Source: Alphaproteobacteria bacterium HGW-Alphaproteobacteria-18 (GTDB lineage Bacteria > Pseudomonadota > Alphaproteobacteria > Caulobacterales > Hyphomonadaceae). From it: a stretch of 64,000 nt of DNA. Under the pieces are notes generated by a model. The model saw only the letters and a list, made by a program, of their open reading frames with translations, did not search any database and had not been told where the DNA came from. Position 1 is the first letter of the stretch; each line of letters begins with the position of its first letter. Position numbers and translations under genes: made by a program. The stretch covers positions 1 through 64,000 of the forward strand of contig PHEH01000004.1 in assembly GCA_002841155.1 (NCBI GenBank), in the 5' to 3' direction. Shown here piece after piece: positions 34,922 through 57,852 of the stretch.

Positions 34922-35380
34922 ATGACCATCACGGTTCGCGAAGGGCAACCGGCAGATGCAGATGCCGCCATCAACACGCTGCGCCGTTCTATTGCTCAGC
35001 TCTGCCTGCCTGACCATGGCCATGATCCCGAAACGCTTGAAAGCTGGCTGGCGAACAAAACGAAAGCCTCATGGCATGACTGGCTGAGCCGGACCGACCG
35101 ATCGGTCTTTGTTGCGGAGAAAGACGGCCTTATCCTTGGCGTGGGCATGATCAGCGCCGCTGGCGAAGTGATGCTGACCTATGTCGATCCGGACGCGCGG
35201 TTTGCCGGCATCAGCAAGAAGTTGCTTACCCGCATGGAACGCGCCGCGTCCGAGCGCGGCCTTGAGCGATGCTTCCTTGAAAGCACAAAGACGGCGCTGA
35301 ACTTTTATCTCGCCTGCGGATACGCCCTGGTCAACACTGGAGAGAGCGAGCTGCGCCTTGAGAAGCGGGTTGGCGGTTAG
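34922..35380 (+). CDS. GNAT family N-acetyltransferase
   Basis: About 152 residues from the ATG at 34922; the track ORF begins upstream in another gene. The fold is visible in MTITVREGQPADADAAINTLRRSIAQLC, RSVFVAEKDGLILGVGMISAAGEVMLTYVDPDARFAGISKKLLTRMERAA (the acetyl-CoA loop, here with GISK) and LESTKTALNFYLACGYALVNTGE. The substrate cannot be told. It probably shares a transcript with yjdM. The 382-bp stretch that follows holds two palindromic repeats and no gene. Confidence 0.82.
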   Translation: MTITVREGQPADADAAINTLRRSIAQLCLPDHGHDPETLESWLANKTKASWHDWLSRTDRSVFVAEKDGLILGVGMISAAGEVMLTYVDPDARFAGISKKLLTRMERAASERGLERCFLESTKTALNFYLACGYALVNTGESELRLEKRVGG

Positions 35381-35442: not shown

Positions 35443-35508
35443 CGTCACCCCGGAATTTGCGAGAGCAAATGTCCGGGGCCAGCGGCATCGCGTGAACCGG
35501 GGATGACG
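35443..35508. repeat. REP-like palindromic element with GAGA-capped hairpin
   Basis: ccccgga-atttgc-gaga-gcaaat-g-tccgggg forms a strong hairpin (35448-35478). The outer ends cgtcaccccgg and ccggggatgacg can pair in an alternative fold. Its cgtcac...tgacg ends resemble those of the neighbouring elements at 35561-35680 and 36331-36366. Confidence 0.7.
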
Positions 35509-35560: not shown

Positions 35561-35680
35561 TCGTCACACTCGATGGCCGAAAGGCCATCTGAGTGCCCAG
35601 CTCCTGCCATCGCCGCATGTGCCTGTGGCAGCGTTCGGAGCTGGGCACTCAGATGCGCTGTCGCGCATCGAGTGTGACGA
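35561..35680. repeat. 120-bp interrupted palindrome able to form a four-armed structure
   Basis: Perfect outer arms of 15 bp (tcgtcacactcgatg / catcgagtgtgacga) and perfect inner arms of 19 bp (catctgagtgcccagctcc / ggagctgggcactcagatg) are separated on each side by 10 bases. Each 10-base insert is itself a mini-hairpin: gatggcc-gaaa-ggccatc on the left and gatgcgc-tgtc-gcgcatc on the right. The tip has ctgcca/tggcag. Confidence 0.85.
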
Positions 35681-35762: not shown

Positions 35763-36236
35763 TTAAACCCCCGCCTCTTTCCAGCCGCCACGCTCCGTCT
35801 GCTGAAAATAGCGGGTGACTAATCCCGCGTCTTTGGCGGCTTTGAACTGGGCGCGGGCTTTGTTGCGGGTGCCGGTGTCGGAATCCTCGAACATCACCAT
35901 GCAGCGTTTGAAGGCCGCGTCGACCGGGGCCTCCACGCCGTCCATCAGCATCAGGGCGTCGGCGCTGTTGGCGTTGGTGAGTTTGGCCGAGAGCAGCACC
36001 GGCTGGCGGGCGACATCCAGCCCCGGCGCATCGGCCTGGCCATGTGGCAGGAACGACGCGTCGTCAAAGGTCCAGAGCACGGCGTCGAGCTTGGCGAGGC
36101 GCTCAGCGCGCGGCGAGACGGCCAGCACACGCCAGCCGACCTCAAGGCATTTCTGCAAAAGCGGCGCGGCCGCCTCCTCCAGCGCGCTGCGCGAGAGATG
36201 GTAGAACCACCATTCGGGGGCTGCTGGCTGAGACAT
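35763..36236 (-). CDS. holC: DNA polymerase III chi subunit
   Basis: About 157 residues from the ATG at 36236 with GGAG upstream. The chi pattern is WWFYHLSRSALEEAAAPLLQKCLEVGWRVLAVSPRAERLAKLDAVLWTFDDASFLPHG, with QPVLLSAKLTNANSADALMLMDG and KRCMVMFEDSDTGTRNKARAQFKAAKDAG. Chi links the clamp loader to single-stranded-DNA-binding protein. It lies downstream of pepA on the same strand, the standard pepA-holC order, although about 150 bp containing repeat elements now separate the two. Confidence 0.93.
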   Translation of the reverse strand: MSQPAAPEWWFYHLSRSALEEAAAPLLQKCLEVGWRVLAVSPRAERLAKLDAVLWTFDDASFLPHGQADAPGLDVARQPVLLSAKLTNANSADALMLMDGVEAPVDAAFKRCMVMFEDSDTGTRNKARAQFKAAKDAGLVTRYFQQTERGGWKEAGV

Positions 36237-36256: not shown

Positions 36257-36280
36257 CATCCTTCGACTTCGCTCAGGATG
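36257..36280. repeat. Short palindromic repeat
   Basis: catcct-tcgacttcgctc-aggatg forms a 6-bp stem. It resembles the interspersed cttcgactncgctcagga-type repeats common in Gram-negative genomes. Confidence 0.45.
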
Positions 36281-36320: not shown

Positions 36321-36374
36321 CCATCCGTTCGTCACCCTCAGACGGGCTTTGCCCGTCGAGGGTGACGCGGATGG
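36321..36374. repeat. Palindromic repeat downstream of pepA
   Basis: The element has three nested stems: ccatccg/cggatgg, gtcaccctc/gagggtgac and gacgggc-ttt-gcccgtc. It sits between the pepA stop and holC and could also attenuate transcription. Confidence 0.75.
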
Positions 36375-48467: not shown

Positions 48468-48630
48468 CCCCCTCCACCCCTTCGGGGCACCTCCCCCGCT
48501 TCGCAGGGGAGGATGAGGTTGCACCGAGACGCCCTCTTGTCCTCCCCTGCGAAGCGGGGGGTGAGGCGGAACAGGCATCGCGCTGCGATGTCCCGCCGAA
48601 CGACGCTGCAACGCAGCGAGACGGAGGGGG
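48468..48630. repeat. Interspersed palindromic repeat, copy C
   Basis: Perfect 21-bp arms CCCCCGCTTCGCAGGGGAGGA (48493-48513) and their reverse complement (48540-48560) sit inside outer arms CCCCCTCC/GGAGGGGG. The first half reappears, nearly identical, at 57781-57827. Confidence 0.85.
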
Positions 48631-57683: not shown

Positions 57684-57706
57684 GGGAAGTTCAGGCCTCG
57701 CCTTCA

Positions 57707-57827
57707 TCCTCCCCTGCGAAGCGGAGGAGGTGGCAGACGGCGTTCGCCGGCTGACGGAGGGGGCCTGCAACGGCGAAGTTTCCCCCTCCGCCCCTGCGGG
57801 GCACCTCCCCCGCTTCGCAGGGGAGGA
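57707..57827. repeat. Interspersed palindromic repeat, copy D
   Basis: Arms TCCTCCCCTGCGAAGCGG... (57707-57732) and CACCTCCCCCGCTTCGCAGG... (57802-57827) are inverted copies. The second half, from tttccccctcc through gcaggggaggat, closely matches 48465-48514. Confidence 0.85.
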
Positions 57828-57852
57828 TAGAGTTGCGCCCGGCGAAGCCGGA

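Follow-up and report, generated by a model that had tools for sequence, protein, structure and literature searches.

What is a 120-bp palindrome doing at positions 35561-35680 of this window (the whole 64-kb stretch of DNA that was analysed), where it ranks first among the inverted repeats? It lies between two convergent genes: a GNAT gene on the forward strand, ending at 35380, and holC on the reverse strand, with its 3' end at 35763. The outer arms (TCGTCACACTCGATG/CATCGAGTGTGACGA) measure 15 bp and the inner arms (CATCTGAGTGCCCAGCTCC/GGAGCTGGGCACTCAGATG) 19 bp, and the arms are interrupted by two unlike 10-base inserts, GCCGAAAGGC and CGCTGTCGCG, each of which makes a hairpin of its own. 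An earlier, sequence-only reading had described the palindrome in just these terms, including its arms, its differing inserts with their separate hairpins and its siting between the GNAT gene and holC, and the sequence agrees with that description throughout. The palindrome also folds far better than chance would have it (z = -9.9 relative to shuffles, with 0/200 shuffles as good). A search of Rfam gave no matching family for it, the sole Rfam match being a tRNA.

The same reading went further, predicting that the palindrome folds as a four-armed cross and proposing that selection acts on that shape. The first part holds to a degree: the cross can be reached, and RNA folding ranks it first for three of the six copies that we found in this genome and near the top for others, but in the window copy the minimum-energy RNA fold is a long rod, 1.3 kcal/mol more stable than the cross. 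With the window copy folded as DNA, the cross lies no more than 0.1 kcal/mol from the best fold.

There is, however, a second register in which to read the palindrome, since each half alone is a 12-bp hairpin with a 1-nt bulge (CACNCTCGATG...CATC-T-GAGN'G); the 120 bp, as read from the sequence, are an inverted pair of one 44-nt unit. The left unit (35561-35605, forward strand; 67.6 bits with R1, the covariance model of the unit) consists of a CGTC tag, the bulged 12-bp hairpin and a tail, GCCCAGCTCC, a division that the covariation among units also supports. Its inner mini-hairpin, GATGGCC-GAAA-GGCCATC, occupies 35572-35589 and shows compensatory changes at three pairs. The right unit (35636-35680, reverse strand; R1 match of 67.2 bits) is inverted so that the tags point outward, and its mini-hairpin, which reads GATGCGC-GACA-GCGCATC on the reverse strand, lies at 35652-35669 and likewise shows covariation. 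Between the two units is a spacer of about 30 nt (35606-35635) that varies in the alignment of the six copies. The consensus of the unit is TCGTCAC-N-CTCGAYGSSC-loop-GSSCRTC-W-GAG-N'-GCCCATCTCC: an unpaired CGTC tag, then the 12-bp hairpin with one bulged base, then the tail GCCCATCTCC.

The six tags-out pairs lie at six places in the genome, and TCGTCAC is invariant in all 12 of their units. Over these 12 halves, 99.3% of the stem cells are paired and double-sided changes are seen at 19 cells, versus a mean of 6.4 in shuffles; the compensatory change that had been suspected in the small hairpins is thus real. All four Watson-Crick pairs occur at the N/N' position. We also compared 37 distinct pairs (from the named Hyphomonadaceae contigs L118-L197, the genome itself and the window), and in 17 of them the two halves differ at N. 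Where the halves are unlike at N, the cross-half pair is necessarily broken, and it is the count within halves that informs: there the pair was kept in 34/34 cases. What is conserved, therefore, is each half as a hairpin (the REP unit), and the cross is a shape that two such units can make together. All 37 distinct pairs have the tags-out heterodimer arrangement; the rule is strict, every pair combining two unlike inner hairpins, perhaps because long perfect palindromes are avoided.

The possibility that the palindrome acts as a structured RNA, with selection on the four-armed cross as such, can be judged from these same data. The cross does come out as the best RNA fold in half of the copies and near it in others, yet the changes compensate within halves and not between them, where pairing is often lost, no Rfam family matches, and the repeat is dispersed and variable in copy number; we find this possibility scarcely credible. 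We reject the four-armed cross as the conserved shape, since within-half pairing is the part that is kept, which leaves the interpretation offered by the earlier reading partly supported.

How far the repeat is dispersed can be seen from its distribution. Matches to this covariance model occur in 36 of the 42 species of the genus, the number of units per genome ranging from 0 to 61 (G008, with 61, is the most REP-rich relative), so that the further copies expected genome-wide do exist: five more in this genome and many across the genus. When 84,980 species genomes were scanned for the exact pattern, 85 stretches came back, and among the matches listed by name only Hyphomonas, Henriciella or other Hyphomonadaceae appear, which points to Hyphomonas as the origin of the window. 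Comparison of close relatives at two orthologous intergenic sites shows that some of them have the pair and others do not. One is the hisF site (the names of its neighbor genes were assigned from sequence), where this genome and G043 carry the pair, G046 carries half of it and G016, G052, G042 and G008 lack it. The other, between a transporter gene and pyrB, holds the pair in this genome, G008 and G046 and a different pair in G043, and is without it in G016 and G052. We could read neither a target-site duplication nor an exact junction at these sites, as filled and empty sites differ also in tens of flanking bases, and no empty site was found for the window copy, the neighboring genes or repeats being different in the relatives. 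The palindrome is, then, one copy of a mobile-looking repeat that is dispersed in Hyphomonas genomes.

These data bear also on another explanation, namely that the palindrome serves its host at gene ends, as an RNA 3' stabilizer or, where genes converge as GNAT and holC do, as a bidirectional terminator. It is a very stable hairpin, it is suitably placed between convergent genes, and REPs in general are located mostly 3' of genes (Di Nocera et al., 2013; PMC3733652). On the other hand, no intrinsic terminator (a GC-rich hairpin followed by a T-run) was called at the palindrome, and a copy number that ranges from 0 to 61 among species, together with the absence of the pair at orthologous sites of close relatives, indicates that the repeat is dispensable. 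We consider it improbable that a host role of this kind accounts for the repeat; it could be a secondary function.

To which class of repeats does the unit belong? The GTAG- and CGTC-tagged classes of REPs were defined by Di Nocera et al. (2013; PMC3733652), who described four families of the latter (CGTC-1 to CGTC-4), concluded that CGTC REPs are without a dedicated transposase and noted that bulged forms could have escaped their detection. Our unit is like the CGTC superfamily, which includes Neisseria dRS3 and Rickettsia RPE-4/RPE-6, in having an unpaired CGTC tag at its end and a palindromic stem, in occupying dispersed intergenic sites, mainly in Alphaproteobacteria, with no adjoining RAYT, and in forming predominantly tags-out (HH) dimers that are often heterodimers. 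It does not fit any of the four described families: these have a stem of 8-9 bp with A-T pairs in the first and second position, a loop of 4-5 nt and a CCA-like tail, whereas the unit has a bulged stem of 12 bp that starts with C-N-C and has no A-T pairs at its base, a loop of mostly 3-4 nt and a longer tail, GCCCATCTCC. Since stem, loop and tail all depart from CGTC-1 to CGTC-4, the repeat is, by its sequence characters, a new family of CGTC-tagged REPs within the superfamily. It is tied, in addition, to a GIY-YIG nuclease, a link that is absent from the 2013 paper.

The obvious comparison is with the REPIN-RAYT system of GTAG REPs (PMC3116915, PMC2817692, PMC8266576), which likewise combines pairs of tagged hairpins with a single-copy nuclease gene between them and type-specific matching of the two. 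There, the enzyme is an HUH tyrosine transposase and the tag is GTAG, whereas here the proposed partner is a GIY-YIG nuclease and the tag is CGTC. Could the palindrome simply be a usual REPIN that a RAYT has mobilized? The architecture is alike, with tagged hairpins in inverted pairs (PMC3116915, PMC3733652), but the tag is CGTC and not GTAG, no RAYT gene accompanies it, and the Y1_Tnp domain (PF01797) has no match in this genome or in G008, despite the 61 units of the latter. PF01797 matches do occur in 9 of the 42 genomes, where they are unrelated to REP copy number. We rejected a RAYT as the mobilizer on these grounds and hold a usual REPIN to be very improbable.

The repeat is associated, in a type-specific manner, with one clade of small GIY-YIG nucleases. 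In two named relatives (L142 and L132) and in G043, a gene for a single-domain GIY-YIG nuclease of ~100 aa lies between two units. The unit model matches at 13/13 loci of this clade, at 1/25 of the remaining small GIY-YIG loci (L239, a weak match, counting matches up to about 300 bp from the gene) and at 0/8 uvrC loci (Fisher p = 2.6e-9 for the link between clade and repeat); those holC loci that match the unit come from the closest relatives, where the region is orthologous to the window. The 13 unit-linked genes form a single branch (SH-aLRT 99), with one change versus 12.5 in shuffles, and they sit in at least seven unrelated neighborhoods, so that the nuclease gene and the repeat travel together, even if some of the loci are common by descent and hence less independent. 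Around the gene, most REP families have their tags outward, whereas in the family of our unit the tags point inward or full pairs stand on both sides; the gene lies between two pairs (both complete in the named contig L129) and not within the spacer of one pair.

With a median dN/dS of 0.11, the nuclease genes are under purifying selection. The protein matches PF01541 (E = 1.1e-13), and the conserved Tyr, Tyr, Arg and Glu of the GIY-YIG catalytic domain are all found: Tyr11, Tyr22 and Arg32 are invariant in the alignment, as is His36, and the Glu of REKxIK is visible only in the full-length rows. Its best sequence match among solved structures is 1ZG2 (UPF0213 protein BH0048), and NCBIfam has no subfamily name for it. 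The single-domain YhbQ/UPF0213/Slx1-like proteins (PMC1564403) share the domain and the size with the REP-linked nuclease, but the tree puts them on the opposite side from it. Unit counts are higher in genomes with the cognate gene (median 6 versus 3, p = 0.007, uncorrected for shared ancestry). The cognate gene is absent from this genome, G042 (22 matches) and G016 (11 matches), all of which bear the repeat. This genome has a single small GIY-YIG gene (C31:20460), and the REPs on its flanks are of another type, with more copies elsewhere in the genome.

The association extends well beyond the genus. When Alphaproteobacteria were sampled at one small GIY-YIG gene per genome, 15/29 genes had matching inverted repeats on both sides, as opposed to 0.6% of mismatched flanks, at score thresholds that were our own choice. 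Across Proteobacteria, 45/67 members of a large nuclease group are REP-flanked, compared with 0/28 of the YhbQ/UPF0213/Slx1-like proteins (counts from the Alphaproteobacteria sample plus a phylum-wide set, split by the tree). In this tree, many forks of which are without resolution because the protein is short, the type of flanking REP tracks the nuclease clade. Flanks were scored from the domain, as true cases were missed when scoring began at the stop codon and went outward, probably owing to reading frames that extend into the REP. Classical CGTC-type REPs stand on both sides of the gene in 8 of 10 named cases: Sinorhizobium meliloti pSymB, Azospirillum lipoferum, Novosphingobium aromaticivorans and Neisseria gonorrhoeae, along with Shinella, Rhizobium, Sphingobium and Aeromonas caviae. 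This named set is illustrative and not statistical, since mismatched flanks score too (13/90 at threshold) owing to similar REPs being common to those species. On the A. lipoferum plasmid AZO_p3 (L374, 783-1076), the GIY-YIG gene has full REP pairs on each side and separates sufB from sufC, as though it had inserted into an operon.

Given a repeat family with hairpin covariation, presence and absence at orthologous sites and a link to one nuclease clade that is itself under purifying selection, we think it rather probable that the palindrome is a non-autonomous mobile REP pair, the autonomous relative of which is the gene for the ~100-aa GIY-YIG endonuclease with its flanking units. We infer that the nuclease would recognize the tagged hairpin that matches it in REP type, either in an extruded cruciform or in exposed single-stranded DNA, and would cut near the tag; repair or recombination would then copy the pair, or the pair together with the nuclease gene, into new intergenic sites. 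Only copies still able to form the hairpin would be substrates, which would explain the covariation. Counting against the proposal, repeats persist without the cognate nuclease, orientation varies and there is no readable junction.

The strongest rival reverses the causality: the GIY-YIG gene would be a selfish, homing-type gene that lands at or beside REPs that something else has made and spread. Homing nucleases are indeed known among GIY-YIG enzymes (PMC1564403), the cognate gene is missing from several genomes that have many units, and the A. lipoferum gene between sufB and sufC, with its REP pairs, could be read in this way. The matching of types argues against it, the flanking REP tracking the nuclease clade, as does the lack of any other apparent mobilizer and the position of the gene, in the family of our unit, between two pairs and not inside one spacer; we therefore regard homing as rather unlikely.

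We would give an even chance to the broader idea that CGTC REPs across Proteobacteria, including Neisseria dRS3 and those of rhizobia and sphingomonads, are the non-autonomous ends of GIY-YIG-driven mobile elements, which would have no classical transposase and would spread by means of tagged hairpins, nuclease cutting and host repair. Alphaproteobacteria and Neisseria commonly carry CGTC REPs, and the type-specific nuclease link makes the question of their missing transposase directly testable. If true, it would give a role to a large and widely annotated group of ~100-aa GIY-YIG proteins and would constitute an independent second instance of the REPIN-RAYT lifestyle. Among open PubMed Central papers, we found none that links CGTC REPs to GIY-YIG genes; PMC9465073 and PMC5082802, considered as possible reports of such a link, were both unrelated.

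The window holds several other repeats. A single fused hairpin of the unit's family (CGTCACCCTCAGACGGGCTTTGCCCGTCGAGGGTGACG) lies 5' of holC at 36330-36367 on the reverse strand, with R1 matches on both strands. Relatives carry full pairs 5' of holC (G008, C15:40174-40291; G046, C309:13876-13993; L205; and also G042), and by this comparison the fused hairpin is probably the deletion remnant of a pair. At 35443-35508, 53 bp from the palindrome, is a REP pair of another CGTC type (CGTCACCCCGGAATTTGC...GGGGATGACGG), and repeats like it flank a different GIY-YIG clade in L264. At 36257-36279 is the hairpin CATCCTTCGACTTCGCTCAGGAT; in L251, L252 and L271, repeats of this type flank the FWVYLLQCADGKYYVGSHRGDDV GIY-YIG clade. 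Two more long inverted repeats, at 48493-48560 and 57706-57828, have arms of the TCCTCCCC.TGCGAAGC type and probably represent another dispersed palindrome family.
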